The notes beneath the pieces were generated by a model that worked only from the letters and a program-made list of their open reading frames with translations, was not told the origin of the DNA and made no database searches. Below, in pieces: positions 38,816 through 55,305 of a DNA stretch of 64,000 bases; position 1 is the first letter of the stretch, and every line of letters starts with the position of its first letter. Source of the DNA: Enchytraeus crypticus (lineage: Eukaryota; Annelida; Clitellata; Enchytraeida; Enchytraeidae); the NCBI GenBank assembly GCA_905160935.1, contig CAJHZI010000535.1, positions 482,001 through 546,000 of the forward strand. The letters are read 5' to 3'. The position numbers were made by a program, and so were the translations under genes.

Positions 38816-39919
38816 TTCTTTATTTATAATACTATTACGCTTCTGTAAACCTTTTGATGATGCTTTGTTTTTGTTCATCTTTGATGAATCAGGATTACAT
38901 CCTGTATCTTTTCCCCATACATAGTATGTTTTACTGCATAAAGCTACCATACCTTCTCCTTCATATTCAATCTTAAACAATCCTGGAGTTCTATTTGAAT
39001 ATTTATCTGTTGAAAACCATTTATGTTTTTCCTTTTCAAACTCATCCCTTAATTCAGGTTTAATTAATTTCTCAAAATCATCAGTCATAGCCATATAAGC
39101 AGAATCTGTATCCATCTCTATATACTGAAAATCTGATCTATCTATATACTTATCTATACAATCATAATAAAACTGTAACATCCTTAACTTTGAATCATCA
39201 TATATACTACATGCAACTTGGATAGGCATATCTTGATAAACCTTTCTAGCTCTTTTAGTTACTTCATACACTCCATTATATTCTTTTGCACCATAATAAA
39301 AGTGATCGTTTTTAGCTCTATTGAACTGTGCTTCAGTACAATATTTAACCTTTTTGAATTTATTCTTATTCAAACCCGTTCTTCCAAAAGCTGAATTACC
39401 AATAAGTTTACACCCTTCAGCAATTATTGCATACTTTGTATCTATATCTCCTTTTCTTCTTTCATCTGATACCCATTCCATAAAACCCTTCAGTACTCTT
39501 CCTCTCTTAGCTTCAATAACTCCATGTAACTTACTAACAATACATCCATGTTCTATTAACCATTTTAGTCTTGTAGATTTAATTAATATCTTTTCCGCCT
39601 TTAATGTAGCCATAAGTTTTTTACTTTTCGTAGGTTTTCTATCCAACTTCTCAAGTAAAGCTTGTGTGTATTCTCCACATATAGTTTCATCATACTCCCT
39701 ATTTTGAAATATCGGACACATCTCACTAAAATAATTCCATTTATCTTCAGGTACTTCTATATCAACTTCCATAAATCCAAAGAAGGAATCCGTCATAAGT
39801 TCTTTTTCATACTTTACCCAATCACTAGTTTCTTGCCAATATAATTTACCACAAGGCATTTCTTCACCTATACAATATAAATACAACGCATTTGCATCAT
39901 AACCAACTATTTTCTTCAC
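38642..39919 (-). CDS. pPolB: Protein-primed DNA polymerase B, polymerase domain (3' part of a frameshifted gene)
   Basis: This 425-codon frame holds the palm and fingers motifs of family B polymerases: motif A YDANALYL (Asp8), motif B around KLIGNSAFGRTG (171-182), motif C MDTDSAYM (Asp270 and Asp272) and the KTYY motif (330-333). It would copy the linear element from its ends using a protein primer, as in adenovirus and phage phi29. The quoted start is a GTG. The frame is open back to about 40000, where it meets the upstream ORF in the -1 register, so this is not an independent gene. The last ~57 codons lie inside the left TIR and are duplicated in the right TIR. Confidence 0.93.
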   Translation of the reverse strand: MKKIVGYDANALYLYCIGEEMPCGKLYWQETSDWVKYEKELMTDSFFGFMEVDIEVPEDKWNYFSEMCPIFQNREYDETICGEYTQALLEKLDRKPTKSKKLMATLKAEKILIKSTRLKWLIEHGCIVSKLHGVIEAKRGRVLKGFMEWVSDERRKGDIDTKYAIIAEGCKLIGNSAFGRTGLNKNKFKKVKYCTEAQFNRAKNDHFYYGAKEYNGVYEVTKRARKVYQDMPIQVACSIYDDSKLRMLQFYYDCIDKYIDRSDFQYIEMDTDSAYMAMTDDFEKLIKPELRDEFEKEKHKWFSTDKYSNRTPGLFKIEYEGEGMVALCSKTYYVWGKDTGCNPDSSKMNKNKASSKGLQKRNSIINKEKYIQCLFNSEIINGVNKGFRFDKKEMKTYEQNKVGLSPLYTKGVVMDDGIHIRPIVF

Positions 39920-39972
39920 TGTTTTCCCTACTTCTTTGTTGTAACCCCATTCCTTTTTACCTATATCATAAT

Positions 39973-42900: not shown

Positions 42901-43143
42901 TACGTCAATATTTCTATTACTTTTTGGACTTTTTACACGTACTTTAGTGCTAGTACCTTCCTTAGCTTTTACTGCTTGACTTTTTTTCGTGACGTTTGAA
43001 AATGTCGAAGCATTGTTTACCATACTTTCAATATTTATAAATTCATCATTTGTTATTTTACGACCTAATATCGATTCTACCTTCATTACTGATAGATGAT
43101 TAAATAACTTTAGCCTTTCTAACTCATCATTTGTCAACACCAT
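39973..43143 (-). CDS. pPolB: Protein-primed DNA polymerase B, N-terminal and exonuclease part with HNH domain (5' part of a frameshifted gene)
   Basis: A 1056-codon frame. Three repeats of an R-x-I-x-(V/I)-GG-x-A-(F/Y)-K-x-LL motif (about residues 70-103, 124-157, 170-200) resemble 2-cysteine-adaptor-type viral modules without the cysteines. A Polinton-type N-terminal region with MCFWACIGIA follows (~390), then a C2H2 finger (CTRCDMRF...H, ~500-520). The 3'-5' exonuclease carries FDLES (~561), FNSGFYDIN (~707) and YNNLDV (~842). An HNH/endonuclease-VII-like module (CHYC...SLDRID...H...N...CQRC, ~945-1000) lies just before the polymerase domain. It starts with ATG in TTAATAAATG and is divergent from the zinc-finger gene. 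The frame ends 27 bases after an A4 run at 39998-40001, where one base appears missing. Confidence 0.93.
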   Translation of the reverse strand: MVLTNDELERLKLFNHLSVMKVESILGRKITNDEFINIESMVNNASTFSNVTKKSQAVKAKEGTSTKVRVKSPKSNRNIDVGGRAFKKLLKEGKYTYDEKTNNFINIDNNKPVAKEEEPKAKVFVKKPDSKRKILVGGKAFKELLKEYSYDEKTQEFTLLDSNKAKKPKTVYSPVSRRQIQIGGKAYKALLEVYEHDKEKNIMIRRDGAEIPILDGSYWVFNESDSDKIVREMVAKERNIYGEENESKYLKLYCFNYIDSLNKIYECFDKIYHKENNAIKLNISFGYVTDKDGEISLFKPGTNNLFFEQLFVVKDLNDLKQLKHRVTKETIENRLIETLKDSKTIILGIYAMAVEITRLDFLIGANIELPTYIKQCRTIIALEKAENNMCFWACIGIAEGCRPDRYIARVRELFTEFYNGRRRIDTYTGFDYINELDRYEEFNKRHAINIVSYYENGAISYVRKSPFNETRVPIYLNLYLNHFSYITDIHKFGNKKYLCTRCDMRFRDNWDLQSHLETCTLEQKDIFNKYPKLWEKKRNIIVELSDYYDVDVDYKYPYMMVFDLESLLQKMRQLVERVIVRDPETKKMIKIDSARFRRLVKQYPYDDQNKVFFPLAKEKESKLRYITRHIPVSVSIATNVPGFNLEEEEEFILSKNPRDLVKLMFEYFDRVAAKAKELMFIQMKPLLDRLEEKDKAEVESYCSVIPIVGFNSGFYDINLLTNEGFINEILARDKTPFVIKEGNRYKGIKTNSFLFLDQMNYCAPGTSLSKFIKSYDIDEQKGWFPYEWFDSYDKLDYLVKDLKIEDFYSSLKDEKMKEKDFNKLMEICKEKKIVLVKDLLRWYNNLDVGPMLKACLKQKELYYTFKLDMYKDAFSLPGLAENVLYQFQILGFEEYLRKAKPHKAGPVFQLDDLELEKRISNYKKQDEDKKRDSSRNVTVEDVRNIFSRDNWRCHYCWSFLCRDTWSLDRIDCKKPHVKNNCVLSCQRCNKARSDKPYKEFYRHKALLRWEKYYNPMIWLFSEENKDAFYKLKQNITGGASIVFHRYHEKIKRRLVE

Positions 43144-43202
43144 TTATTAAGTAAAAGATTATATAAAAGAAAAATTCTTTCATTAAATAAATTGCTAAAT
43201 AA
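43144..43202. promoter_or_regulatory. Divergent intergenic promoter between PolB and zinc-finger gene
   Basis: Only 59 bases separate two divergent start codons. Both starts read TAAATG (AATAAATGG on the plus side, TTAATAAATGG on the minus side), the motif found at almost every gene of the element. Confidence 0.6.
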
Positions 43203-43415
43203 ATGGAAGCCATTATTTTATCTGGCGATATAACTAGAAGAGTTAAAAAGTATGATACAGAGGAAGAGAGACAACAATCTAAAATAAGAGCTGTAAAGAA
43301 ATATGCAAGTAAAAAGTATTACTGTGATATTTGTGATAAAACCATGACACTTCATAATTACTCTAGACATATTGAATCCAATAAACATTTCCAAAATTCC
43401 ATCGCTAATAAATGA
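43203..43415 (+). CDS. Small C2H2 zinc-finger protein
   Basis: 70 residues. A basic N-terminal half is followed by one C2H2 finger, YCDICDKTMTLHNYSRHIES with a second His three residues later (C-x2-C-x12-H-x5-H type). A role in nucleic-acid binding or regulation is inferred; similar single-finger proteins occur in many Polintons and large DNA viruses. The ATG lies in CTAAATAAATGG. It is the first gene of the rightward block, transcribed away from polB. Confidence 0.8.
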   Translation: MEAIILSGDITRRVKKYDTEEERQQSKIRAVKKYASKKYYCDICDKTMTLHNYSRHIESNKHFQNSIANK

Positions 43416-43528
43416 ATACTTCTCAAGTTAGTATTAAAAACACACACATAATTACATAAAACATAATATAAAACACAATATTTAAAGTGTTCTATATTTT
43501 TTCTTTTATGTAATTATGTGTACTATAA

Positions 43529-44122
43529 ATGGTGCCGACAATGAATCGACTACAAGATATGGCTTTGAGAAAGGTGCTAGATACAACTTTAGAAAAATTA
43601 AGGAGTATGGAGCATTCCGAAAAATCATCATTTTTAAAATGGCCAGTTTTTAAGCGTTTGGAAGTTACACTCTGCAGAGGAATTAACCATAGTTGCATTA
43701 CTGACGAAACTTACGTATTGCTCGATAAGTTGTGCGTTGAATTATCATTGATGAAAACTAGTAACTTATCAGGTGACGATTTTAAAATGATTGAACATAT
43801 ACAGCTTGATGGAATCGACTTTAATAGACTTTCTAATAATACTTTAATGACCATTTACTATGTGTGGCCATATAATACGGATGCCATACATTCTAAATTA
43901 GAGAATACAAAAAGTTTTTTTTGTGGAGCGTGTGGTGAAGATATAGTCACATGCGAGGACAGGTGTTATCTTGAAAGTGATGGTTGGTATGATGATGATG
44001 ACTGTGTTGGAAGATGCTCTGAGCTATGTAGAGACTGTGATAGTAGATACTGTGAGGGCGACTGTGGTGTTGGTAGATTTTTAAGGGAGAGTATGATGAT
44101 GACTTTTGGTACCTGTAAATGA
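43529..44122 (+). CDS. Cys-rich zinc-binding-like protein, unknown function
   Basis: 197 residues. The first ~125 are predicted helical with no recognised fold. From about residue 130 there is a Cys/Asp-rich module (FCGAC, then clustered CxxC/CxxxC pairs such as LCRDCDSRYCEGDC) that could bind several zinc ions in a RING- or treble-clef-like way; no canonical RING spacing is seen. Its TGA overlaps the next start (ATGA), showing tight coupling. The start context is TATAAATGG. It may be an accessory or host-interaction protein, but function is not assignable from sequence. Confidence 0.75.
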   Translation: MVPTMNRLQDMALRKVLDTTLEKLRSMEHSEKSSFLKWPVFKRLEVTLCRGINHSCITDETYVLLDKLCVELSLMKTSNLSGDDFKMIEHIQLDGIDFNRLSNNTLMTIYYVWPYNTDAIHSKLENTKSFFCGACGEDIVTCEDRCYLESDGWYDDDDCVGRCSELCRDCDSRYCEGDCGVGRFLRESMMMTFGTCK

Positions 44123-44610
44123 ATACTTCTAATATTACAGTTAAATCTTATCTACCCTCTGAAAGTAGAAGGGAAAGATCTAAATTACAACAAGTTAAAG
44201 ATAAACACAGGTCTTTTACTCAGACTAATAAAAAAGATATTCCTAAAGATTTCAATGAATTAAAAGCAATAAAGAGCAGAGATCATGCTATAACCTTCTT
44301 AAATGAATACATGAATATTGATAAGAAGACCAGTAAATCAAAATATTGTAAAACCCATCACATAAGCCATAATACCCTGAATTCCGGTCTAAAACAACTT
44401 GGGTATAGTATCGAGAACTCTCGATTAAATGAGACCAAACGGGACCAATCTAGACCACTTGAGACCAAACAGACCAATCTAGACCAATTGAGAGCAAACG
44501 GAGAAAACATAAACCACGTAGTGAACTTGTTGTTGCAGGTAACCATGCAAACCCAGAGGGTTTGGATCTCAACAAAGTTGAGTATGAAGATGAGGAACTG
44601 GAGGAAATGA
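44119..44610 (+). CDS. Putative helix-turn-helix DNA-binding protein with frameshifted C-terminus
   Basis: 163 codons as it stands. Residues about 74-96 (KYCKTHHISHNTLNSGLKQL) look like a helix-turn-helix, within a Lys-rich protein. A 30-base direct repeat begins at 44431; the second copy (44461-44489) is one base short. In the original register, reading would continue through a basic KRRKHKPR patch and an acidic EYEDEELEE segment to a stop at 44676-44678. That tail looks far more protein-like than the present one, so the gene probably once ended at 44678 and lost a base near 44470. The ATG sits in GTAAATGA, overlapping the previous stop. Confidence 0.7.
   Translation: MNTSNITVKSYLPSESRRERSKLQQVKDKHRSFTQTNKKDIPKDFNELKAIKSRDHAITFLNEYMNIDKKTSKSKYCKTHHISHNTLNSGLKQLGYSIENSRLNETKRDQSRPLETKQTNLDQLRANGENINHVVNLLLQVTMQTQRVWISTKLSMKMRNWRK
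44431..44489 (+). repeat. Imperfect 30-bp tandem repeat with 1-bp deletion
   Basis: GAGACCAAACGGGACCAATC and its following ten bases are repeated as GAGACCAAACAGACCAATCT and its following nine. The first unit is 30 bases (frame-neutral), the second 29, which causes the frameshift in the HTH gene. A third partial unit starts at 44490. Confidence 0.85.
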
Positions 44611-44700
44611 TTAATACTGCCTTAGGCAGAACAACAGACGTTGTTAGTTTAGCTAATTTGCAAGTTAAGGAACAGTGAAATTCATTATTCTTTATAGTAA

Positions 44701-45102
44701 ATGGATCTAATACCTATAGAAGAAAAAAGTAAATGGACTGCTGATTTAAAACCCATACTGAATGAAATGAGTAAATTATCTGATGCAGATAAAATTCAAG
44801 GATTCAAAAATGAGGTTGTAGATAAATATGTAGCTCATAAAGCCTTAAATTACGTTACCCAACAATTAATCTTAGTAGATTGTGATAATGAAATGTTAGA
44901 GAAAGAAAACGAAGAACTAAGATATAAAGTTGATAATTTAGGAAAGTTTGATGAAAATAGGTTAAATGAATTTAGAAATAAGACTGTAATTGTTCCTTCC
45001 ACAGATAATGAAATACGAGATAGAGCTATGAAAATAATTAGAAGAAATCAAGCTAGAATGAAACAAATGAATGCGAATATAAAAAAGCAAATAAATGAAT
45101 AG
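44701..45102 (+). CDS. Coiled-coil protein, unknown function
   Basis: 133 residues, soluble and highly charged. A heptad-like coiled coil spans about 75-100 (LEKENEELRYKVDNL) and a basic C-terminus has IRRNQARMKQMNANIKKQ. The start is TAGTAAATGG. Its end overlaps the next gene (ATGAATAG). A structural or scaffolding role is a guess; no family is recognised. Confidence 0.7.
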   Translation: MDLIPIEEKSKWTADLKPILNEMSKLSDADKIQGFKNEVVDKYVAHKALNYVTQQLILVDCDNEMLEKENEELRYKVDNLGKFDENRLNEFRNKTVIVPSTDNEIRDRAMKIIRRNQARMKQMNANIKKQINE

Positions 45103-45256
45103 TGAAATAACGAAACTTGAGAGAAATGTTAAGTCTTTAATAGATCAAAATGATAGACTACGATTCTGTATTTACACCTCCATTCCCATTATTATTATTT
45201 TAGTAATGTATATAGCAATGAATCATTTAAATAAACAAAACCTAAATCAAGTATGA
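45095..45256 (+). CDS. Small single-pass membrane protein
   Basis: 53 codons. A short helical N-terminus (EITKLERNVKSLIDQNDRL) is followed by one strong hydrophobic segment (about residues 25-43, containing PIIIILVMYIAM) and a short polar tail. The ATG (in ATAAATGAA) overlaps the stop of the coiled-coil gene, implying co-translation. The last ~60 bases overlap the 3' end of the minus-strand fibre-like gene. Small membrane proteins are common in virus late regions, but no homologue is recognised. Confidence 0.6.
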   Translation: MNSEITKLERNVKSLIDQNDRLRFCIYTSIPIIIILVMYIAMNHLNKQNLNQV

Positions 45257-46172
45257 GTAAGTTTTTATAAAGTAAAAGTTGTAGTTCTTCATTAGTGTTA
45301 TCAGGATCAACTTCTTTTACAGTTTTATTTAAAAATCTTCTGTATCTTTTCCTTGTACCTTTTTCAGGAGCTAAAAATAGTTGTTCTTTAAGTAGAGCGG
45401 CCTTTAACTCTTGAAATATATCTTGAGGTAAAAGCTCTATCAACTTTATCATATTAACTTTTAAACCCCCGAATATAGAACTCTCCTCAAGATCTTCCAT
45501 ATTTCCTGCAAAGATATTCTTGTAAATGTTATACATAGATATAGCATAAGTCAAGGAATTAATGAATTGCTTTGAATTGTATTGATCTAGTAAATTATTT
45601 TTCATTAACACTAAAGAAATAACTTCTCCAATTTTACAAAGTTTCTCAGCAAGTATATTATCATACGTGCCATTAAGGAGCACGTATAATTTATTAGTTA
45701 CATCACTAGAATTCATATCCCCTAATTTGGAATTTGTTTCAAAATATTCTTTTGTTATACAATCATGAGCATCAACGGGATTTCCAACATTAGTTATACG
45801 ATTATTATTCATATCAAGGTTACCAGTCATTGAACCCCCATTTTTATTCAGTTTTGAATTTAAAACAGGTTGCACAGTTTCTTCTATATGTAGATTGGCT
45901 AGTTGCACTGCTGCTAGAGTAGTTTCTTTTTTAATATAATCACAATACCCCTTTGTAGCTACATCGTTATCATTAATTGGTAATTTTACATTTGTTATTC
46001 TATTATTATTCAAACTGATATCACTAGTAATATTTCTATCAAGTTTTGTATCTATAGCAGCCTGAAAGGCTACCTGGACTTTGTCCAGCATTCTATACAA
46101 GGTTTTAAAACTAGAATCATTAACCTTTGGTTTATCTGTAGAACCTGATTTTAAAATAGAGTTGTTACTCAT
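45195..46172 (-). CDS. Phage tail-fibre-like repeat protein (candidate virion fibre)
   Basis: 325 residues. Two copies (about 44-78 and 108-144) of the module seen in phage tail fibres: L-(D/N)-x-N ... (I/N)-x-L-(N/M)-NNRITN followed by V-x-x-P-(I/V)-(N/D)-(D/A)-x-D-x-(A/I)-TK-x-Y. In phages this module forms trimeric, beta-rich shafts before a receptor-binding tip. The C-terminal ~180 residues are helical and unfamiliar. A fibre or spike role on the capsid is inferred. It is transcribed against the neighbouring late genes, diverging from the core-protein gene over a 22-bp gap (ACTAAATGAG start), and overlaps the small membrane gene at its 3' end. Confidence 0.75.
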   Translation of the reverse strand: MSNNSILKSGSTDKPKVNDSSFKTLYRMLDKVQVAFQAAIDTKLDRNITSDISLNNNRITNVKLPINDNDVATKGYCDYIKKETTLAAVQLANLHIEETVQPVLNSKLNKNGGSMTGNLDMNNNRITNVGNPVDAHDCITKEYFETNSKLGDMNSSDVTNKLYVLLNGTYDNILAEKLCKIGEVISLVLMKNNLLDQYNSKQFINSLTYAISMYNIYKNIFAGNMEDLEESSIFGGLKVNMIKLIELLPQDIFQELKAALLKEQLFLAPEKGTRKRYRRFLNKTVKEVDPDNTNEELQLLLYKNLLILDLGFVYLNDSLLYTLLK

Positions 46173-46194
46173 TTAGTAAGAGTAAATAAGGACA
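46173..46194. promoter_or_regulatory. 22-bp divergent promoter between fibre-like and core-protein genes
   Basis: Both directions carry the TAAAT signature: ACTAAATGAG leftward and GAGTAAATAAGGACAATG rightward. The very short shared promoter suggests simultaneous late expression. Confidence 0.6.
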
Positions 46195-46866
46195 ATGACA
46201 CAATATATAAATCACGGTGTTACACTTTCATCAGGACAAGCAACTAAAATTAAGCATGCATGTGATAAAGGTACTGAAGTTGTAATTAAACTATCTAAAA
46301 AGAATTTAACAGGAGATATCAATCTTCCTTTAACGAAGACTCAGTTAAATAAAATTAAACAAGCTAATGCTGGTGTGGAACTAACCCTTAGTAAAACTCA
46401 ACTTAAGCATATGGAAAAAACTGGAGGATTCCTAGGGGCTTTCCTTCGCTTACTTCCTGCAGCTTTAAGTCTTTTAGGATTAGCGGGAGGAACAAGTGGT
46501 ACAGGTAATTCGAGCAAACAGGTGGCTCCATCAGAGTCAGACATATCAAATTCTAACCCAATATCATTTTATGGAATACCCTTATCAAATACCTTAAAGT
46601 CATATGGTTTAGAAGGTAATACAGAAGGACTTAGAGGAGCAAAGTGGGGTAAAGGTTTATACTTAGAAAGAGAAGGATCAGGCATAATTAGCGATGCTGT
46701 GGAGCCAATACCCTTGGTTGGAAAGATCTTATCTGACCTCTTAAAGAAGATTGGTTTAGGAGGTAATCCAAAAAGACTTAGAGGTGTAGTGTGGGGTAAC
46801 GGTTTATACTTAGAAAGAGAAGGATCAGGTTCTTTTTTAGGAAAAAAAAAGACGTGCAAGTGTTAA
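46195..46866 (+). CDS. Virion core-type protein with hydrophobic helix and GLYLEREGSG repeats
   Basis: 223 residues. The N-terminal part has the paired LTKTQLNKIKQA / LSKTQLKHMEK motif and a GGFLGAF...LLPAALSLLGLAGG hydrophobic stretch (~77-99). This arrangement recurs in Polinton and adintovirus proteins thought to be minor core or membrane-active virion proteins. Two repeats (about 138-163 and 187-212) share LRG-x-x-WG-x-GLYLEREGSG. The ORF ends in KKK encoded by an A9G run that is a canonical -1 slippery site leading into the protease. Some product is therefore likely to be a core-protease fusion. Confidence 0.75.
   Translation: MTQYINHGVTLSSGQATKIKHACDKGTEVVIKLSKKNLTGDINLPLTKTQLNKIKQANAGVELTLSKTQLKHMEKTGGFLGAFLRLLPAALSLLGLAGGTSGTGNSSKQVAPSESDISNSNPISFYGIPLSNTLKSYGLEGNTEGLRGAKWGKGLYLEREGSGIISDAVEPIPLVGKILSDLLKKIGLGGNPKRLRGVVWGNGLYLEREGSGSFLGKKKTCKC
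46845..46851 (+). promoter_or_regulatory. Putative -1 ribosomal frameshift site (A AAA AAG), core to protease
   Basis: The heptamer is in the right register of the core ORF: A|AAA|AAG. The -1 frame is open from 46800 and runs straight into the protease. The preceding A9 homopolymer adds slipperiness. Only weak AT hairpins follow (for example AAGT-GTTA-ACTT at 46858-46869), so a strong stimulatory structure is not evident. Confidence 0.6.
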
Positions 46867-47309
46867 CTTTCCCTAAATTTCTAAGTAAATTTCCTTTACC
46901 ACTAAAACCTTTAAGTAATTTTGATATTATGGAAAAATGTAAATCAATTAAAAACTTTAAAAGTGTGTTTATGAGAGATGAGTTGAAAGGCAAGGCTAGC
47001 ACTAGCGAAAGTCTAATATTAAATATGGATGATAGTGAGGGTCAAGGAACACATTGGGTTAGTCTTTATGTTAAGGGTAAGAATTGTTATTACTTTGATA
47101 GTTTTGGTTTCGAACCTCCATTAGAGGTTAAGAATTATTGTTCAGAAAAAAACAGATATTTCAGTACATATAAAATACAAGCTAGGGATGAAATCATATG
47201 CGGTCATTACTCTATCTATGTTATTAGGGAATTAAACAAGGGTAAAAGTTTTCACGATGTACTTAATCATTTGTTTCAAATCGTAGCTAGTAAATCAGAA
47301 CAAAGTTGA
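46854..47309 (+). CDS. PRO: Adenain-like maturation cysteine protease
   Basis: 151 codons with the adenovirus-protease/Ulp1 signature: GTHWV (His67), YYFDSFG (Asp82), Gln109 seven residues before Cys116 in ICGHYS, the same Gln-Cys spacing as in adenain. It should cleave core and capsid precursors during virion maturation. The quoted start is a GTG. The first ATG (46929) lies after the conserved PLSNFDI segment and would remove it. There is no TAAAT motif here, and the frame is -1 to the overlapping core ORF with a slippery heptamer at the junction. Expression as a frameshift fusion is the simplest explanation. Confidence 0.9.
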   Translation: MQVLTFPKFLSKFPLPLKPLSNFDIMEKCKSIKNFKSVFMRDELKGKASTSESLILNMDDSEGQGTHWVSLYVKGKNCYYFDSFGFEPPLEVKNYCSEKNRYFSTYKIQARDEIICGHYSIYVIRELNKGKSFHDVLNHLFQIVASKSEQS

Positions 47310-47316
47310 AGAACTA

Positions 47317-48027
47317 ATGTCTCTAAACACAGATTTTTCACAAATACTAATACCCCTATATGGTAATAAAAAACACAAGAAACATGCAGATATTTTTCCT
47401 AAAAATATATTTATGATAATAGCAGGCAGTACGGGATGTGGAAAAACTAATCTGATGCTTAATTTCTTACTAAATAAAGTTTTAAAATATGATGACGTGA
47501 TGATATACACCACAACACCTTTTCAAGATGCTTACAGATATTTACAGGACATTAATACAGAACTGGATTCTGACATTGTTACTTTGTACAATCCTAATGA
47601 GTCGAGTATTGTAGGTCCAGAAGAACTTGATAAAGATAAAACCCATATTGTAGTTTTCGATGATGTTATGAGTGAGGATCAAAAAGTTATGACAGATTAC
47701 TTTTGTAGAGGTAGACATAATAATGTAAATGCATTTTATTTATGTCAAAGCTTACATCATTTAAAGAAACATGGAATACGCCAAAATGCTAATATATTTA
47801 TTTTGTTTCATCAAGATAAAAAGACAGTAAAATATTTCTATGATACACATATTTCAGGTGATATGGGGTTAGAGGAGTTTGAGAAACTTTGCGATAAAGC
47901 TTGGTCTAAGAAGCACGGATATATAGTAATCAATCTTTGGGAACCTCCTGAATGTGGTCGATATCTCTTAAATTATGATACTTTATATGTTCCAAACAAA
48001 TACATAAAAATACATAGAAGTACATAG
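47317..48027 (+). CDS. ATP: FtsK/HerA-family DNA-packaging ATPase (A32-like)
   Basis: 236 residues. Walker A GSTGCGKT (37-44) and Walker B IVVFDD (111-116) are in the arrangement of viral packaging ATPases, followed by a conserved CQSLHHLKKHGIRQNANIF segment. It should power genome packaging into the capsid. It begins 7 bases after the protease stop. Its TAAAT motif (in CTAGTAAATC) is 21 bases before the ATG, inside the protease coding sequence, unlike other genes where it touches the start. Confidence 0.93.
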   Translation: MSLNTDFSQILIPLYGNKKHKKHADIFPKNIFMIIAGSTGCGKTNLMLNFLLNKVLKYDDVMIYTTTPFQDAYRYLQDINTELDSDIVTLYNPNESSIVGPEELDKDKTHIVVFDDVMSEDQKVMTDYFCRGRHNNVNAFYLCQSLHHLKKHGIRQNANIFILFHQDKKTVKYFYDTHISGDMGLEEFEKLCDKAWSKKHGYIVINLWEPPECGRYLLNYDTLYVPNKYIKIHRST

Positions 48028-48051
48028 AAATGTGTTTTATCGTGTATAAAT

Positions 48052-48945
48052 ATGCTGGTAAAATTTGATCCTACAACATATAGTAAGGTTAAAAATGAGG
48101 TTAAGGAAATGTTCAGAGATGAGAAAGTTGGAAAGCAACAAACATATGAGAGTCAATCAGAATTATTCCAACCAATCATAAATAGTACTAAAGAAGTTAT
48201 GAAAACTATCACTGATGAGAAACAAAGCTTAAATAATACAGCCGATAGGCTGCTGAGCAAAGCTCAGATTTTAGCACTTCGAGATAATGCTGGACAAAGT
48301 CCAGGTAACCTTCCAGGTTACGACCAAAGACTCGCATTAAGGCAAGCAATACAAGATATGTCAGGTCTTTCAGACGTATTTTCAGAACCGAAGGAATCTA
48401 CTCCTAAAGCTCCAAGAGTTGACTTAAACAGAGGCTTTAATGAAACAGATATAGAAAATTTACAGGACTTAAGTTTACCACTTCCACATGCAGTATATTC
48501 TATCATTGGTGAAATACCTGAAATTCTAAAAGAGGTTACAACAAAGATAAAAAGTCTTGCACAAGAATTTAGAGAAGATCGATTATCTAAGAAGACAGAT
48601 ATAGAGAAAGGAATATATGAATCACAAAGGGTCACTTTAGATAAATATAAGAAAAGGTTAAAGTATATTCAGGAAAGTAAACAAGTAGTTGGTGAGGGTA
48701 AAAAGAAAAAGAAACTTGTTAAAAAGAAATGTGGAAGAGGGAGGCCTAAAACAAACTACGCTCTAGTATATAATGATGCAAATGATTTACTTCAAAAACT
48801 GGAAGAATATATTGCATCGTATCATGCTGGTAATAATGGAGTTTATAATACCATTATTACTATTTTAGATGAATTATTGAACAATAAAATTATCTGTAAG
48901 GATACCCATGATCAAATCTTGAAGAGTAATAACCTTTACTTATAG
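48052..48945 (+). CDS. AT-hook-containing virion-associated protein, unknown
   Basis: 297 residues, mostly helical. A coiled-coil-like N-terminal half has a SLNNTADRLLSKAQ segment. A Lys block (KKKKK at ~217-221) and an AT-hook core GRGRPK (228-233) suggest binding to the minor groove of AT-rich DNA. The tail is again helical. Its place between the ATPase and penton genes suggests a packaged or minor capsid/core protein, but no family is certain. The ATG follows TATAAATATG. Confidence 0.65.
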   Translation: MLVKFDPTTYSKVKNEVKEMFRDEKVGKQQTYESQSELFQPIINSTKEVMKTITDEKQSLNNTADRLLSKAQILALRDNAGQSPGNLPGYDQRLALRQAIQDMSGLSDVFSEPKESTPKAPRVDLNRGFNETDIENLQDLSLPLPHAVYSIIGEIPEILKEVTTKIKSLAQEFREDRLSKKTDIEKGIYESQRVTLDKYKKRLKYIQESKQVVGEGKKKKKLVKKKCGRGRPKTNYALVYNDANDLLQKLEEYIASYHAGNNGVYNTIITILDELLNNKIICKDTHDQILKSNNLYL

Positions 48946-49020
48946 TGACCTTTGGTCACGTCTTTCCTGATTTTAAATCAGTCTGTCGAAGACAGCTAGC
49001 AACTTCGTAGCTAGTAAATA
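48946..49020 (+). promoter_or_regulatory. Tandem hairpin leader upstream of penton
   Basis: Four small perfect stem-loops in a row: GTGACC-TTT-GGTCAC, CTGATTT-T-AAATCAG, CTGTC-GAA-GACAG and CTAGC...GCTAG, then CTAGTAAATACAAAATG. The second hairpin with its TCTTTCC lead recurs upstream of the PLA2 gene with compensatory changes. Confidence 0.7.
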
Positions 49021-49024
49021 CAAA

Positions 49025-49744
49025 ATGGCAAAACTAACACTGACCAGTCATACAACCGATTTTACCACAATTCTAAATCCTCCAATATATCTTAATACAA
49101 GCAAAAGATATGAAGCAGCCTTTTTATCATTACACACCTATAATTCTGTACCAAATATTACAGAAACTAATAATAAATTTAAATACTCTACAGATAAGGG
49201 GGTTACTTGGAAAATAATCACATTTGATAAGGGTGCTTATGAATTGGCTGTAATTAATGCAAAAATAAAAGTAGCAGATCCGAATTTTGAAATTGATATT
49301 GATTATTATAAACCAACGTTTAAGACATTACTTGTTATACCTAATGAAAACTATATGGTAGATTTTGGAGTGGAAAATTCGATAGGTAGAACTTTAGGAT
49401 TTACAAATGAAAAATTAGGGAGTGGTGTTCATTATTCACCAAACGTAATAGATATAGAAAAAGTAAACTCAATACTGGTACACTGTGACATTATTATTGG
49501 TACTTATGTTAATAGTTCTAGATCAAATGTTATATATAACTTTACACAAAGAGTAAGTCCAGGATATAAAGTAATAGAGAGACCAAGTCCTGAATTAATA
49601 TTTCTTCCAGTTGTAGGAAGACCTGATATACAAAGTATTAGAATCTGGTTAACGGACCAAGATAATAAACCTATTGACCTAATGGGAGAAAAAATTACAA
49701 TTGATATACTGATTAGAGAGGTCAGATCTTTTATATCTGTTTAA
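49025..49744 (+). CDS. mCP: Minor capsid protein, penton-type single jelly roll
   Basis: 239 residues, beta-rich, without membrane segments. The C-terminal strand block SIRIWLTDQDNKPIDLMGEK followed by ITIDILIREV is typical of Polinton penton proteins, where RIWL-x-D-x-x-x-x-P-x-D-L-x-G-E is recognisable across elements. The protein would occupy the fivefold vertices of the capsid. The start follows CTAGTAAATACAAAATG. The stop TAA is part of the next gene's TAAATAAGGATG start region. Confidence 0.88.
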   Translation: MAKLTLTSHTTDFTTILNPPIYLNTSKRYEAAFLSLHTYNSVPNITETNNKFKYSTDKGVTWKIITFDKGAYELAVINAKIKVADPNFEIDIDYYKPTFKTLLVIPNENYMVDFGVENSIGRTLGFTNEKLGSGVHYSPNVIDIEKVNSILVHCDIIIGTYVNSSRSNVIYNFTQRVSPGYKVIERPSPELIFLPVVGRPDIQSIRIWLTDQDNKPIDLMGEKITIDILIREVRSFISV

Positions 49745-49750
49745 ATAAGG

Positions 49751-50038
49751 ATGTTCGTGAGAAAGAAGAATCAAATGTACACATCCAAAAGAAAAATGGT
49801 GTATGGTTCTGGCTTTGTAGATATCCTAAAAAGGATTGCTTCATATATTTTTCAAAATAAGGATTTGATTGCTAAACCAATGTTAAAGGCTGTTGGAGAA
49901 GTAGGGGGTTTGGCCCTTACAGAAGGAAGTAAAGCTTTAATTAATAAACTCTCTACTGATAAGAAGAAGGAGTTAGATCCTAATTCACAACAAATATTGG
50001 ATAGATTAAGATCTGGTAGCGGTATAAAGAGATTTTAA
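49751..50038 (+). CDS. Small basic amphipathic virion protein
   Basis: 95 residues. Very basic start (RKKNQMYTSKRK), then YGSGF and an amphipathic helix (DILKRIASYIFQNKDLIAKP), a small Gly/Ala stretch, and an RSGSGIKRF end. Position (penton, this gene, MCP) and features recall adenovirus-type minor core or membrane-lytic proteins such as pX/pVI, but homology is not proven. GSG near both ends may be protease processing sites. Start context TAAATAAGGATG. Confidence 0.7.
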   Translation: MFVRKKNQMYTSKRKMVYGSGFVDILKRIASYIFQNKDLIAKPMLKAVGEVGGLALTEGSKALINKLSTDKKKELDPNSQQILDRLRSGSGIKRF

Positions 50039-50046
50039 ACTAGTAA

Positions 50047-51414
50047 ATGCAGACTGAAGTAGATAACGATGTACTTATATTACAAACTCAAGTGGAAGTT
50101 GATAACAGTATTGAAAGAAAAGATTATAAGACCTTCATTCCTCAAAGTAAAGCTGATTTTAATAACTTTGGTCATACAATTGAAATTAGAACTCCGGCTA
50201 GCGATGCTTATTATATTCCTTCTCAAAGTTACATTGAGGTAAAGGGTCAGCTAGTTAGAGCAAACGATAATAATGATGTTTATGCAGCTGATGCACAAAT
50301 AGCTTTAATTAATAATGCTGTAATGTATATGTTTTCGAGTATTGAGTACAGGTTAGGTGGGCAAATAATGGAAACTTTAAATTTTCCTGGACAAACTACA
50401 TCAATGTTAGGTTATCTAATTTATCCAGATGATTTTAACAGTAGTTCAGGTCTAAAACAGTGTTGGAGTAAAGATACATCTTCTAGTGCAGATAGTAACG
50501 AAATTAATGCATCTGTGGCTGCCCCTGCAGCAGGTTATAGGCCTACTAGAAATAATAATTTTAATCAGGGTTTTGATGTGCGCAGGAAACTTCTTATGAG
50601 TTCTGATCCAAGAGGAAACTTTTCATTCATTATACCTTTTTCTCACATTTTCGGATTCTCAGAATATGACAAGGTCTTATATAATATGGAGCACATTTTA
50701 AAATTCACAAGAGGTAGTGATGATTTACCAATACACAGGGCAAATGGTGTTCCTGCAGGTAAAATATTAATGAATGATATTAGATGGATTATTCCACAAG
50801 TAATACCGTCTCCAGTTAAACGAACTCAACTGTTAGAATTAGTGAAAAATAAAGCACTTATTCCATTACATTTTTCTGCAAGAAGTGATGAGCATACTAC
50901 TGTAATTCAAAATGTCCGTAGCTTTAACTGGATGTTAAATAGTTCAGCAGGTGTGGAAAAACCAAGATGGATAATACTTTCATTTCAAACTGATAAGACT
51001 CGTACCCAAGAACAAAATCCTGCAATATTCGATCATGTTAATTTAAGCTCAGCTTGTGTTAAGTTGAATGGAGATAGATATCCCTCAGATTATATAGATA
51101 TTGATTACGCAAAGAATGATTACGTTAAACTTTATGAAATGGCTGAAAATTTCAAGAAAGATTATTATGGAATAAATAATTTAATAGGTGGCAATCAAAT
51201 AAATTTACTTAGTTACAAGGAGTTATATCCTATTATAGTATTTGATGTAAGACATCAGAGTGAACAGGTAAGATCAAATGTAATGAGCATTAGTCTAGAA
51301 CTAAAATTTGAGCAACCTATACCTGCAGAAACTCATCTACATGCGATAATAATATCAGATAGATTATTTAGATTAACATCTGATGGGCAAACGCCTAGGA
51401 TGGAAAGTTATTAA
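50047..51414 (+). CDS. MCP: Major capsid protein, double jelly roll
   Basis: 455 residues, full length for a Polinton capsid protein. It has an N-terminal SIERKDYKTFIPQSK region, the conserved FPGQTTSMLGYLIYPDDF and GLKQCW-x-x-DT segments, and a C-terminal SLELKF strand. The double jelly-roll fold would form trimeric capsomers. It starts at CTAGTAAATGC, nine bases after the preceding stop, and appears uninterrupted, so capsid assembly capacity is preserved. Confidence 0.93.
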   Translation: MQTEVDNDVLILQTQVEVDNSIERKDYKTFIPQSKADFNNFGHTIEIRTPASDAYYIPSQSYIEVKGQLVRANDNNDVYAADAQIALINNAVMYMFSSIEYRLGGQIMETLNFPGQTTSMLGYLIYPDDFNSSSGLKQCWSKDTSSSADSNEINASVAAPAAGYRPTRNNNFNQGFDVRRKLLMSSDPRGNFSFIIPFSHIFGFSEYDKVLYNMEHILKFTRGSDDLPIHRANGVPAGKILMNDIRWIIPQVIPSPVKRTQLLELVKNKALIPLHFSARSDEHTTVIQNVRSFNWMLNSSAGVEKPRWIILSFQTDKTRTQEQNPAIFDHVNLSSACVKLNGDRYPSDYIDIDYAKNDYVKLYEMAENFKKDYYGINNLIGGNQINLLSYKELYPIIVFDVRHQSEQVRSNVMSISLELKFEQPIPAETHLHAIIISDRLFRLTSDGQTPRMESY

Positions 51415-51477
51415 AAAATTTTATACTGTAAATACTGACAGTCTGTCAGATCTTTCCCGGTTTTAAAGCCGGTAAAT
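51415..51477 (+). promoter_or_regulatory. Hairpin leader upstream of the PLA2 gene
   Basis: CTGACAG-T-CTGTCAG is a perfect 7-bp hairpin; TCTTTCC then leads into CCGGTTTTAAAGCCGG, a near-perfect palindrome. TCTTTCC plus a TTTTAAA-centred stem is shared with 48961-48976, but the pairs differ compensatorily. It ends in GGTAAATATG. Confidence 0.7.
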
Positions 51478-52032
51478 ATGTACTGCTTAAAATGTAGAGC
51501 CGTGACTGACTCAACAAATATACAAGAAAGAATTTCTAAAAATAACAGAAAAATGTTAATTGCTGTATGTACAGTATGTGGTAAGCAAAAATGTAAATTC
51601 ATCGCAGGTACAAAAAGTGGGCAAGGTGTATTTAATGACGTTCTATCAAAAATCGGCAATACCGTTGGTGAATTACACTTGCCATCAAATCAAGGCGAAT
51701 ATGTAAATAATGGATCCTTTAATAATCAAAATAAGTATTCTTATTGCGGTCCTGGTACAAAGTATGAACAGAGGAATAGAGAAGGGTATAAGGGTATTAA
51801 TGAGTTGGATAGTATGTGTAAGTTACATGATCAATTTTATACAGACAATACAGATACAGCAAGTAGAAATATTAGCGATGAAGCTTTAGCGCATAGAGCC
51901 TATGAAATTTCTAATGATCCTAAATTTGACAGTACTCAAAGAAACATGGCAAAATTGGTTAGTGTTATAATGAAGAATAAAGCAAGATTTGGGTTAGGTA
52001 TAAATTCAAAAAACTTAAAGAAGGGGTCTTAA
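51478..52032 (+). CDS. Zinc-ribbon plus phospholipase A2-like protein
   Basis: 184 residues. Cys3, Cys6, Cys31 and Cys34 (YCLKC ... CTVCG) form a zinc ribbon like the small DUF5679-type modules of DNA viruses. Residues ~85-145 resemble the parvovirus VP1 phospholipase A2: calcium loop YCGPGT (89-94) and catalytic KLHDQFY with His117-Asp118. In parvoviruses this enzyme opens the endosomal membrane; the same role at entry is inferred. The ORF ends NLKKGS just after a canonical slippery heptamer, and the -1 frame leads into the integrase. Confidence 0.85.
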   Translation: MYCLKCRAVTDSTNIQERISKNNRKMLIAVCTVCGKQKCKFIAGTKSGQGVFNDVLSKIGNTVGELHLPSNQGEYVNNGSFNNQNKYSYCGPGTKYEQRNREGYKGINELDSMCKLHDQFYTDNTDTASRNISDEALAHRAYEISNDPKFDSTQRNMAKLVSVIMKNKARFGLGINSKNLKKGS

Positions 52033-52042
52033 CTGACCCCTT
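52008..52042 (+). promoter_or_regulatory. Predicted -1 ribosomal frameshift element (slippery site plus hairpin), PLA2 to integrase
   Basis: Heptamer A AAA AAC at 52008-52014 is in register with the PLA2 frame. Six spacer bases (TTAAAG) follow, then a perfect 8-bp stem AAGGGGTC (52021-52028) / GACCCCTT (52035-52042) with a 6-base loop that contains the PLA2 stop. Geometry and sequence match retroviral and coronaviral signals. The -1 frame after the slip is the integrase frame. Confidence 0.8.
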
Positions 52043-52115
52043 TGAGCAACTGGCTGAAGAATTACATAAACCTGTTAGAAGGAAGTTTGAAAGGAGAAAA
52101 GTAGAAGTTTATGCT

Positions 52116-52970
52116 GTGGATGATATTTGGGGTGCAGATTTAGTCGATATGCAGGAATGGAGTAAGGTGAATAAAGGTTATAAATACATGTTAAATGTTA
52201 TTGACGTATATTCAAAATATGTATGGAGTGTACCTTTGAAAGATAAGAAAGGTGAAACAGTGACTGAAGCATTTAAAACTATAGTGAAGGATTCGGGTAG
52301 GAGACCTAGGCATATATGGGTGGATCAAGGTAAAGAATTTTATAATAAAAATATGGATCAGTGGCTACAGGAAAATAACATTAATAGATATTCTACTTAT
52401 GGAGAGCATAAATCATGTGTAGTTGAACGGTTTAATAGGACGTTAAAGGAAAAGATGTGGAAAAGATTTACAGCTGAAAATACTAGAAACTGGGTTGATA
52501 TGCTAAATAGGTTAATTACTGAGTATAATAATACTGTTCATAGCACTACAGGTATGACTCCAGGTAAATGTAGTAAATTAGTTGATAGCATAGATATGGT
52601 TAGGCCTACACCAGAAAAACTTAAGAAACCTAAGTTTAAAGTTGGAGATAAAGTAAGAATTAGCCGAATAAAGGGCGTCTTCGAGAAAGGATATTTACCT
52701 AATTGGTCTGAAGCTGTATATGCTATACATGAAGTAAAATTAACAAGGCCTGTAACTTATGTTTTAAAAGATACAAGGGATGAGGTATTAGAGGGTAGTT
52801 TTTATGAACAAGAATTACAAAAGACTAAGCAAGAAATATATAGAATTGAGAAAGTGTTACGAAAGAAAATAATAGATGGTGTTGAACATGGTTTAGTTAA
52901 ATGGATGGGCTATAGTGATAAGTTTAATGAGTGGATACCAGTAACAAATATGTATAAGACAAATATATAG
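52116..52970 (+). CDS. INT: Retroviral-type integrase with C-terminal chromodomain
   Basis: 284 codons from a GTG, but the frame is open from 51981 and the upstream codons encode the expected integrase lead (EELHKPVRR). No ATG occurs before the catalytic domain. The catalytic triad is Asp8 (WGADLVDM), Asp70 (WVDQGKEF) and Glu104 (VVERFNRTLK), with 33 residues between the last two as in Polinton integrases. Residues ~241-277 form a chromodomain (RIEKVL...VKWMGY...NEWIP) that could steer insertion to modified histones. It lies in the -1 frame to the PLA2 gene, with a slippery heptamer and hairpin at the overlap, so it is probably made as a PLA2-integrase fusion. It has no TAAAT start motif. Confidence 0.92.
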   Translation: MDDIWGADLVDMQEWSKVNKGYKYMLNVIDVYSKYVWSVPLKDKKGETVTEAFKTIVKDSGRRPRHIWVDQGKEFYNKNMDQWLQENNINRYSTYGEHKSCVVERFNRTLKEKMWKRFTAENTRNWVDMLNRLITEYNNTVHSTTGMTPGKCSKLVDSIDMVRPTPEKLKKPKFKVGDKVRISRIKGVFEKGYLPNWSEAVYAIHEVKLTRPVTYVLKDTRDEVLEGSFYEQELQKTKQEIYRIEKVLRKKIIDGVEHGLVKWMGYSDKFNEWIPVTNMYKTNI

Positions 52971-53252
52971 AGAAAAACTATTAGATTAGTCGCCAAATAA
53001 AAACTTCCTGGTGCAGTTGTACATGTAATGTAAACGCTTATTGATAAATTAGAAACACATGGCCCTATCATATACCGTCACCGGCTAAATTATTTACATC
53101 ACATTCTATTCTATATATATATCAGCCAATGAAGTATTGAAAATTTGACATAGTTTTTCGTTTGTTTTGAAAATTTGACCTATCTTTTCGTTTGTTTAGA
53201 AAACTTGACATAGTTTATCGTAAAAGTTGACACAGTTTGCTGTAATTGGAGA
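52971..53252 (+). promoter_or_regulatory. Promoter-like region with TATA and TTGACATAGTTT tandem repeats
   Basis: A TATATATATA box (53112-53122) and GCCAAT follow the integrase. Four imperfect ~30-base units (GAAAATTTGACATAGTTTTT, GAAAATTTGACCTATCTTTT, GAAAACTTGACATAGTTTAT and a last short one) run from 53136 to the next ATG. This layout differs from the core genes, which lack TATA boxes and use TAAAT. Confidence 0.55.
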
Positions 53253-53585
53253 ATGTCTATGAATAGCAGAAAGAAGCTCGATGGAATATGTGAACGTATA
53301 GGATTAGCAATGCGAAGATTAAGGCATTGTTTGCGAAATAGTAAATACATTAATGAGCCGAATATTACAGCGACTATAAATAATATCAGAAATGTACAAG
53401 TTTTGGATGAAATTTCGCAAGCTCAAAGTGGAATCGATAGCTTAATGTGCTTAATCGAGGTTCTCAAGGAAGAACAAAAACGAAGAGACGCAGCAGCAGC
53501 CGTAGAAAGAGAAGATGAAAAACGAAACAGTAAAGAAGAGGACCGAAGAACCCGATTTGATAGACTTCGTATTAATCCATATTAA
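53253..53585 (+). CDS. Accessory coiled-coil protein A, unknown
   Basis: 110 residues, helical, basic N-terminus (MNSRKKLDG, MRRLRHCLR) and a charged C-terminal coiled coil (KEEQKRRDAAAAVEREDEKR). No known domain is recognised. It is not in the TAAAT-headed gene set and lies between the integrase and the right TIR, where Polintons often carry variable cargo. It shares the KxRDA(A/K) style of helix with the following accessory gene, so the two may be diverged duplicates. Confidence 0.55.
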   Translation: MSMNSRKKLDGICERIGLAMRRLRHCLRNSKYINEPNITATINNIRNVQVLDEISQAQSGIDSLMCLIEVLKEEQKRRDAAAAVEREDEKRNSKEEDRRTRFDRLRINPY

Positions 53586-53734
53586 TTATAGGCTTAGTAT
53601 AATATAGACCTAGCTAAAATTCTGAACATTGTTTTGGTAAAGAATACTTGTCCAGACTTGCCATAAAGATTGTTACGGATGTATCGATTCGCATGACTGA
53701 AGCGTAGAATGTTTACTGTTGTCATAGTTGTTGC

Positions 53735-54014
53735 TATAAACAATACTCGTGATACTTCGCAGTTTCAGCAACGTTCTGCATTTATCATTTGTACTCGATT
53801 GAAATCGGACTTATCATTACGAAAGGTAAGTATATTTTGATATTAAATTTCTTTAAAGTTTTGAGTTAGTAAATTACACATCTGTTCAAGTGACTTTAAT
53901 ATAAGAAAGATTTTACAGGATGTAATCCTGATCCATCAAAGATGTATAAAGATATTTAATAAAAATTGAAATTATATAAAAGAAAATAATTCAGACCGTA
54001 TTTTTTTATTACAG
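53735..54014 (+). promoter_or_regulatory. TATA promoter, 5' exon and 189-bp intron of accessory gene B
   Basis: TATAAA (53735-53740) is followed ~30 bases later by TTTCAGCAAC, a plausible initiator. A consensus donor AAAG|GTAAGT ends the leader at 53825. A T7-rich tract and ATTACAG|G acceptor close the intron at 54014, 14 bases before the ATG. This is ordinary host-type Pol II and spliceosome architecture, predicted but not observed as RNA. Confidence 0.6.
53906..53947 (+). pseudogene. Detached fragment of the polymerase gene
   Basis: ACAGGATGTAATCCTGATCC followed by ATCAAAGATG matches the minus-strand polymerase segment encoding TGCNPDSSKM (reverse of ~38881-38915). In the polymerase this lies directly next to the part duplicated in the right arm (54797 onward). 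Here about 850 bp of accessory DNA separates them, and the fragment sits inside the predicted intron. Confidence 0.7.
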
Positions 54015-54028
54015 GCTGAAACTGAAAT

Positions 54029-54361
54029 ATGGAAGGAGTGCAAGATATTCATACACACAAGTGTACTTATTTTAATGAGAAGGAGGAAAAATTTCCTTGT
54101 GAGAATATCCCGATATGGGAGGCTATTCTGCAAAGAATAAACGAAGAACAACGAGCTCAAGAAGAAGCAAATAAAAAACGAGACGCAAAAATCAGTGAAC
54201 TTTGCTCTTCAAATGATGAACGAGACGCAAAAATCAGTGAACTTGATCGACAAGCTGTGGAAAATAATAATAAGAGAATTCGGTTCTGTTCTCAGATGTA
54301 TATGTATTTAGGTAACATGATGTCCGCAACTGCAAACTTTCGTGACGGAGCACCTGAGTGA
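54029..54361 (+). CDS. Accessory coiled-coil protein B, unknown
   Basis: 110 residues. The N-terminus has several His/Cys (IHTHKCTYF) that might bind metal, followed by a coiled coil with an internal duplication (KRDAKISEL, then ERDAKISEL), also visible at DNA level as repeated CGAGACGCAAAAATCAGTGA. No domain is recognised. It has a predicted 5' intron and TATA promoter, unlike the core genes, suggesting nuclear, possibly early, expression. Confidence 0.55.
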   Translation: MEGVQDIHTHKCTYFNEKEEKFPCENIPIWEAILQRINEEQRAQEEANKKRDAKISELCSSNDERDAKISELDRQAVENNNKRIRFCSQMYMYLGNMMSATANFRDGAPE

Positions 54362-54478
54362 CAATGTAGAGAGGCAGTAATCATAGTTTCATTCTATATT
54401 AAAATCAAAATAATTTTAACACATTTTGAAAGACAGTAAAACACCATTGTAAAAGAGCTATATTTTACTTTATAGGTT

Positions 54479-54607
54479 TTAGTTAAGCATTTTAAAGGTT
54501 TTAGCTATTTTATGACCTTCAATTAGAGGATATTTGTTATTATTTCTTTCATCTACAGTAAGTGTAAATTTATCAGTAGGACTTTCAGCTAATGAATTAG
54601 TACTCAT
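54479..54607 (-). CDS. Possible 42-residue minus-strand ORF
   Basis: ATG in AATATGAGT, a composition typical of real protein (TDKFTLTVDERNNNKYPLIE), and a stop at 54479-54481. The in-frame sequence upstream is open and basic for 15 codons. No family, promoter motif or homologue is recognised; it could be a remnant of a longer gene. Confidence 0.3.
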   Translation of the reverse strand: MSTNSLAESPTDKFTLTVDERNNNKYPLIEGHKIAKTFKMLN

Positions 54608-54681
54608 ATTTCGAATTCTATATCGGAATCTTTTTCTGTAATAAGTAGAATGTCAGTGTCCCTTGACAATATACTTTGACT

Positions 54682-55032
54682 ATGTTGAGTCTTCTGTATG
54701 CCATAAGCGAAATATCACAGTCTGCAGTGTGGCTAAATATAGTGTCTGCAATCATTTTATTGATTAATATGCAAAAGAGAATATCTATAAATATAAAAGC
54801 ATCATCAAAAGATATACAGAAGAATCGTACTTATAATAGTAGTATTATAAATAAAGATAAATATATACAATGCTTGTTTAATAGTGAGATTATTAATGGT
54901 GTTAATAAGGGGTTTCGGTTTGATAAGAAAGAGATGAAAACATATGAACAGAATAAAGTAGGGTTATCTCCTTTATATACAAAAGGAGTTGTAATGGATG
55001 ATGGTATCCATATTAGACCTATTGTATTCTAG
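54682..55032 (+). pseudogene. Truncated polymerase C-terminus fused to an unrelated hydrophobic leader
   Basis: The last ~57 codons are the polymerase end duplicated by the right TIR; upstream, ASSKDIQK still resembles the polymerase's ASSKGLQK with an insertion. Before that, ~37 codons encode a hydrophobic segment (VSAIILLINM) of unrelated origin. None of the catalytic motifs is present, so it cannot act as a polymerase. Confidence 0.75.
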
Positions 55033-55287
55033 AGGGTTGATATTATAAATAGATGTTGCTATAGTTTCGATACAATATAAATAATAAATATTATTATTAG
55101 TAGTATCTAATCCGGGATTACACTACTACATGGTACTTTCTGGAGCGATTTTTTATAGAGTTTTATTTAGTATTTTTGGCGAGCGAACGGGGAGAGAGCG
55201 AGACAAAAATAGTAAATAAATCGCTATAAAAAGGGGTGTCGCTCCAGAAGTACCAGGTGGTAGTGTAATCCCGGATTAGATACTACT
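54859..55287 (-). repeat. Right terminal inverted repeat (429 bp)
   Basis: Reverse complement of 38387-38815, with diverging similarity inward to about 54797. Its outer 189 bp repeats the terminal palindrome. Confidence 0.93.
55099..55287. repeat. Palindromic terminal hairpin in the right TIR
   Basis: Same structure as 38387-38575: AGTAGTATCTAATCCGGGAT at the inner side and its complement at the outer end. Confidence 0.9.
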
Positions 55288-55293
55288 AATATT
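55288..55293. repeat. Target-site duplication AATATT (right)
   Basis: Six bases identical to 38381-38386, directly outside the terminal TACTACT. Confidence 0.9.
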
Positions 55294-55305
55294 ACGTGTT
55301 ATAAT

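Follow-up and report, generated by a model that had tools for sequence, protein, structure and literature searches.

Retroviruses carry -1 ribosomal frameshift signals at the gag-pro junction, as in MMTV, where the slippery heptamer is A AAA AAC, or at gag-pol in others, and bacterial transposases of the IS1/IS3 type are made by -1 frameshifting as well. The phospholipase A2 (PLA2) type considered here is that of the VP1 domain which parvoviruses use during entry. In the available text of two papers, PLA2 of this type is assigned to parvovirus VP1 (PMC5803895, PMC3671162), and likeness to VP1 is stated for the CAP protein of Sf-Maverick (PMC5803895). Sf-Maverick 1 and 2 resemble the Polinton described here in having an integrase with a chromodomain and a protein with a parvovirus-VP1-like PLA2 domain, but the accessible part of that paper describes CAP and INT as separate ORFs, and its two mentions of frameshifting concern errantiviruses (PMC5803895). 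In adintoviruses, a related virus group, -1 slippery sites have likewise been predicted, in Penton and Hexon-Adenain; these, however, are capsid-protein and protease genes, the suggestions are based on KnotInFrame, and PLA2-integrase goes unmentioned in the portion of the source available (PMC11071296). A PLA2-integrase frameshift signal in Polintons was not found described in the accessible portions of the open-licence literature (including PMC8097293, PMC3671162, PMC12721341, PMC11071308 and PMC12567637). Here we describe an element that appears to make its integrase only upon ribosomal -1 slippage, joined to PLA2, through a signal kept in many of its relatives.

The element and its PLA2-integrase junction

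The window, that is, the whole stretch of 64,000 nucleotides analysed, contains an element bounded by the terminal inverted repeats (TIRs) and 6-bp target-site duplication that mark Polintons/Mavericks:

38387-55287, no strand assigned: Polinton/Maverick element of 16.9 kb
38380-38837 and 54837-55294: inverted pair of 458 nt, 100% identical, comprising the mutually identical TIRs of ~450 nt and the palindromic duplication
38381-38386 and 55288-55293: 6-bp target-site duplication AATATT, given by the end sequences

Pfam recognised within it a double jelly-roll capsid protein (PF21738, E 2.6e-45, 50047-51414) and an A32-type ATPase (PF04665, E 3.9e-9, 47317-48027); the match to an adenovirus-type cysteine protease (PF00770, 46854-47309) scored 17.6 bits, below the cut-off of 21.3. 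Two minus-strand ORFs (43143-38642), which we take from their motifs to be a protein-primed PolB, gave no Pfam match at E 0.001. A frame change near position 40,000 splits this gene in two in the window copy; all six sister copies examined differ there, by one gapped position. Since the change is absent from these six, we regard the window copy as partly broken despite its identical TIRs. PolB extends with its 3' end into the TIR (38642-38837, 54837-55032), so that the element carries a second copy of the PolB C-terminus at its opposite end. Within the TIR, the outer ~50 bases recur in inverted orientation, forming a nested terminal repeat (38379-38593, 55091-55305). Elsewhere in the element, the ORF at 46195-46866 contains two 125-nt repeats (46558-46682 and 46705-46829; 78% alike) that encode a repeated GLYLEREGSG motif.

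At the junction of interest, two plus-strand frames overlap around a candidate frameshift signal:

51478-52032, plus strand: PLA2 ORF, zero frame, 184 aa, with Pfam DUF5679 and Phospholip_A2_4
51981-52970, plus strand: integrase (INT) ORF, -1 frame, rve integrase with C-terminal chromodomain; upstream stop at 51978
52008-52014, plus strand: slippery heptamer A AAA AAC, reading TCA AAA AAC in the PLA2 frame
52015-52020, plus strand: spacer TTAAAG, 6 nt
52021-52028, plus strand: 5' arm of the stem, AAGGGGTC
52029-52034, plus strand: loop TTAACT, enclosing the PLA2 stop TAA (52030-52032)
52035-52042, plus strand: 3' arm of the stem, GACCCCTT

The integrase carries the rve domain typical of Polintons/Mavericks (PF00665, E 5.7e-14), and a search of the PDB matched it to the PFV (foamy-virus) integrase. 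Its chromodomain scored 23.4 bits against Pfam Chromo, under the cut-off of 25.1, and matched HP1/Polycomb chromodomains in the PDB search. The original prediction held that this frame overlaps the PLA2 ORF in the -1 register and has no ATG before its catalytic core, and both points proved correct: the frame is open from 51981, ahead of the PLA2 stop, and its first ATG (52149) lies 3' of the Asp codon at 52137-52139, which we take to encode the first catalytic residue of the D,D-35-E pattern. Upstream of that codon, CTG 52050 and GTG 52116 are the only candidate non-AUG starts in the frame.

The in-phase heptamer, the 6-base spacer, the 8-bp hairpin and the PLA2 stop within its loop were likewise all as predicted, position by position. 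The layout is that of a canonical -1 signal, with an X XXY YYZ heptamer in zero-frame phase inside the overlap of two ORFs and a structure within the usual ~5-9 nt downstream. The 8-bp stem could be extended by a ninth pair, G.U, and the segment 52007-52070 has a folding energy of -17.4 kcal/mol (z -3.92), a value that 0 of 200 shuffles matched. Scanning both strands of the window for 24 types of XXXYYYZ heptamer returned 303 on the plus and 328 on the minus strand (631 in total). Of these, 52008-52014 alone has, beginning 4-10 nt after it, a perfect stem that is 8 bp or longer, contains no fewer than 4 G or C in its arm and closes a loop of 3-25 nt. One hundred order-2 Markov sequences of element length, scanned on one strand, contained a mean of 0.0 heptamers with such a stem. 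Rfam gave no match at gathering score in the window, and at the junction only matches far below gathering scores.

Conservation of the signal among copies in the host genome

All relatives read at the DNA level come from one host genome (524 Mb, 802 contigs), those from other sources being available as proteins; the copies are related, and counts among them are thus of non-independent events. Polintons are very numerous in this genome, with 989 integrase and 552 PLA2 candidates at first look. A 401-base junction query returned 238 candidates, of which 40 were scored: 29 were 99-100% identical to the window, one 95%, and ten ~92-94% (lowest 91.8%). The in-phase heptamer and the stem core GGGG(T/C)C-G(A/G)CCCC were kept in all 40, and in their alignment (41 rows, two of them representing one place) L030 has C-G and nine other copies have T.G at a stem pair for which the window has T-A. 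End pieces were fetched for 19 copies; the eight in which a terminus was found have different flanks and are therefore separate insertions. The 29 nearly identical junctions of one family point to a recent burst.

More diverged loci were collected with the public protein P0044 (989 candidates, 119 scored, 30 cut out) and supplemented with 40 places chosen from the list, yielding 70 loci, 67 of them readable. The integrase frame was offset by -1 in 61, by +1 in three (L080, L101, L115) and by nothing in three (L085, with a stop remaining between PLA2 and integrase; L105; and the single-frame fusion L111). Among the 61 loci at -1, 56 have A AAA AAC, two have A AAA AAA (L107, L122) and three have no heptamer (L091, where it was lost to AAG, L114 and L124). 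The best stems of the 58 heptamer-bearing loci comprise 8-14 pairs, counting G.U, begin after a spacer of 4-10 nt and close loops of 8-31 nt; some copies (L072, L098, L100, L146) have a shortened or interrupted stem. Most copies with a lost signal, an altered offset or a damaged stem look like products of decay, yet they count as exceptions to the pattern. At the DNA level the window family is 68-75% identical to the others; the loci form 7 clusters at 85% and 13 at 90% identity, those that lost the signal included in both counts. Integrases of the diverged loci are mostly 65-77% identical to that of the window over the parts compared, L104 and L120 reaching 93%; these two, read with lower-scoring matches, show S-K-N-stop and the -1 offset. 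L111 retains a DUF5679-like start upstream of its integrase, but this part has 29% identity to the window PLA2 protein and is possibly another or a degenerate domain.

In a further test, six PLA2 copies of differing identity or length were picked from 150 scored places with their junctions unseen beforehand. In all six, A AAA AAC stands in phase with PLA2 and the integrase lies at -1; four had stems of 10 to 13 pairs, L146 one of 7 and L148 one of 5. L145 has a stop inside its integrase frame. Over 45 distinct junctions, the 70 nt downstream of the heptamer fold with a median z of -3.08, z being below -2 in 39. Thirty-seven of these 45 junctions were readable (8 unreadable) for an INT-frame ATG before the first catalytic Asp, and none was present in 34. 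The original prediction had treated separate ATG-started integrases in homologues as evidence against it; their absence held for these 34, and the remaining three (L034, L093, L117) do possess such an ATG.

The bases of the heptamer did not drift freely, as they might have done were the prediction wrong: the string xxA AAA AAC was kept in 84 of the 87 loci, out of 110, that our script could read. The residue preceding the heptamer Lys changes from Ser to Ala, Thr or Glu, its codon still ending in A. Asn in the PLA2 body is encoded 1149 times by AAT and 183 times by AAC. When 15 conserved Asn columns were compared, AAC was fixed in the heptamer column only (25 of 25 rows, a 26th row having AAA at this position), the other 14 being AAT or mixed. 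This column control used 26 of 29 rows given (3 were too short), namely the 32 cluster heads minus L006 (a near-copy) and minus L101, L111 and L114, which head clusters without signal or in a single frame, plus L036. The corresponding Lys control was weak, three of eight conserved Lys columns, the heptamer column among them, being fixed as AAA. Because the heptamer Asn is fixed as AAC, which is the strong part of the argument, we conclude that the bases themselves, beyond the residues, are under selection.

Pairing within the stem was conserved in the same manner. Across 41 distinct junctions, 469 of 507 cells (93%) held standard pairs in register, as against 29-61% when partners were displaced by one to three bases. 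At position +12, 31 rows have T-A and 8 have G-C; at +13, 32 have C-G, 5 T.G and 2 T-A; at +16, 27 have G.T, 4 A-T and one G-C. The analysis anchored 104 of 110 loci (L091, L101, L110, L111, L114 and L124 were excluded), and since the anchor demanded A6[C/A] and CC(C)TTTGA, pairs +6 to +10 were favoured by row selection, +12 to +18 lying outside the anchor. The row of L034 is one base out of register because it has seven A. Within this one host genome, the junction thus shows the nucleotide conservation with compensatory pairing changes expected of a canonical -1 signal, and the check proposed with the original prediction, conservation of heptamer, spacing and hairpin across homologues with compensatory changes, came out in its favour, with +12 and +13 covarying.

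Public PLA2 and integrase proteins

Public databases yielded 549 PLA2 homologues, of which 120 separate ones were listed and 118 reached the anchor. Among these listed matches, 108 of the 118 readable proteins have K-N in their short tail and 97 have S-K-N; the residue before K-N is S (97), P, T, L, A or Q, each of which has an xxA codon. Seventeen of the 108 tails end right after K-N, and most others go on with [KR][KR]G[PSL], which the 5' arm encodes. We considered that S-K-N-x-K-K-G-P might be a basic nuclear-localisation tail and rejected this, given the 17 tails that end after K-N and the selection on synonymous bases. The 10 of 118 listed tails lacking K-N consist of three truncated ones, three with S-K-Q-K, two with S-L-N and two others. 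The S-L-N tails, those of P0225 and P0226, read as proteins, are what U UUA AAC would encode, and this suggests a putative swap of one slippery heptamer for another. A search of the host genome with P0226 found its best places in the window family, and the six junctions read from that list all had K-N. Four PLA2/integrase pairs (P0174/P0102, P0231/P0098, P0237/P0103 and P0183/P0088), each presumably from one shared contig, to judge by equal lengths, have S-K-N in all four PLA2 proteins.

Integrase matches numbered 5344, of which 120 were listed. Of those listed, 43 are at least 390 aa long, and single-frame PLA2-integrase fusions are common in the family, which suggests that the fused PLA2-integrase protein is viable. 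Linkers of the long integrases had K-N in 0 of 30 readable by script and in 3 of 13 examined by eye (P0020, S-K-N; P0076, Q-K-N; P0089, in a long linker). Among the 77 shorter integrases the predicted start varies in position, and 22 begin with V or L; P0008 and P0047 are among several that start with M near GPFE. A quick tree of 121 integrases had a starred branch parting 54 rows, the window included, from 67 rows holding all 42 proteins labelled fused; P0020, a single-frame protein labelled separate, is the only one of its kind among the 54. The label was assigned by a length of at least 390 aa, with P0020 set by hand and P0031, P0075 and P0086, which have in-frame PLA2-side sequence, counted as separate. 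In a careful tree of the same number of integrases, the fused label changed 9 times, against a mean of 34.8 upon shuffling; the large 54/67 branch did not appear among the starred sets that surround the window, which reached 14 rows at most. Scans of viral contigs and of genome contigs and a protein search of phage records found no relative, and a region search with P0044 returned P0044 itself only.

Interpretation and comparison with known systems

The best reading of the junction, and in our view very probably the correct one on the sequence evidence, is programmed -1 ribosomal frameshifting that yields a fusion of PLA2 with integrase. Ribosomes translating PLA2 would reach A AAA AAC and pause at the stem-loop a few nucleotides downstream; a fraction would slip back by one base, from TCA AAA AAC TTA to ..AAA AAA CTT, continue in the integrase frame beyond the stop of PLA2 and produce a DUF5679-PLA2-integrase-chromodomain protein, the remaining ribosomes terminating in the loop to give PLA2 alone. 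Frameshifting would set the integrase ratio, and fusion would tether the integrase to the PLA2 protein. Conservation, covariation and the missing ATG in 34 of 37 junctions uphold the central claim of the original prediction, that a -1 frameshift signal joins the PLA2 gene to the integrase.

A similar junction would arise by accident if a one-base indel in the A run, through gene decay or sequencing error, had split a former single-frame PLA2-integrase gene. The heptamer is indeed an A homopolymer, many members of the family encode the fusion in a single frame (43 of the 120 listed integrases reach 390 aa or more), and PolB of the window copy has undergone a frame change. That change, however, is private to the window copy, whereas the offset is common to 29 copies at 99-100% identity and to 11 more; in addition, the stem covaries, AAC is fixed and the -1 offset is conserved across families, and the window side of the quick tree (54 rows, on a branch unstarred in the careful tree) has one single-frame protein, P0020. 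With the offset present in every one of the 40 close copies scored and a covarying stem, against a private change in PolB, we reject decay or assembly error as next to impossible.

Routes other than ribosomal slippage fit the conserved bases poorly. Some viruses show transcriptional slippage at runs of A, and an RNA polymerase stuttering on the six A present here would give edited mRNAs encoding the fusion, but this would leave unexplained why the heptamer is in phase, why its position 7 is fixed as C and why a covarying stem stands at ribosomal spacing, and two public S-L-N tails, read as proteins, would fit U UUA AAC and not an A run; we consider this route very improbable. Splicing could join the frames on paper through 132 GT/GC-AG pairs, as a raw count, or the integrase could be translated separately via a non-AUG codon (CTG 52050, GTG 52116) or reinitiation, in keeping with the ATG of 3 of 37 relatives and the M near GPFE at the start of P0008 and P0047. 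Neither splicing nor a separate start needs the heptamer and the stem, which are the conserved elements, and the scattered starts of the 77 shorter public integrases, 22 of them V or L, together with the direct fusion of PLA2 and integrase domains in other relatives, leave such routes with a very slim chance.

Under programmed frameshifting, slippage at the heptamer and its efficiency are predictions. The PLA2 protein would be a capsid-associated protein whose fusion brings the integrase into the particle, and it is plausible that the fusion carries integrase into virions. We propose more tentatively, as an idea falling somewhat short of probable, that an animal Polinton lineage packages integrase through a minor product of frameshifting, the fusion to a PLA2 carried by the virion, a Gag-Pol-like strategy evolved independently in a dsDNA virus lineage, and that related lineages fixed the fusion in one frame. 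Frameshifting at this junction would provide a testable rule for the amount of integrase per Polinton and would tie integrase physically to a parvovirus-like PLA2; it bears on whether Polintons form particles that deliver integrase with their DNA, and would add a eukaryotic DNA element to the users of -1 frameshifting for a recombinase. It also carries a warning, in that annotation will label such integrases start-less or broken.

The retroviral signals share with the present one the heptamer, its spacing, the stem-loop, a first-ORF stop beside or inside the structure and an integrase in the shifted frame. Unlike in retroviruses, the signal here resides in a DNA virus-like element, the upstream protein is DUF5679-PLA2 instead of Gag, and the fusion is devoid of protease and reverse transcriptase. 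With IS1/IS3-type transposases the element would have in common a DDE/rve recombinase produced only as a frameshift fusion, but its host is eukaryotic, and its upstream part is PLA2-like where the transposases have a DNA-binding regulator.
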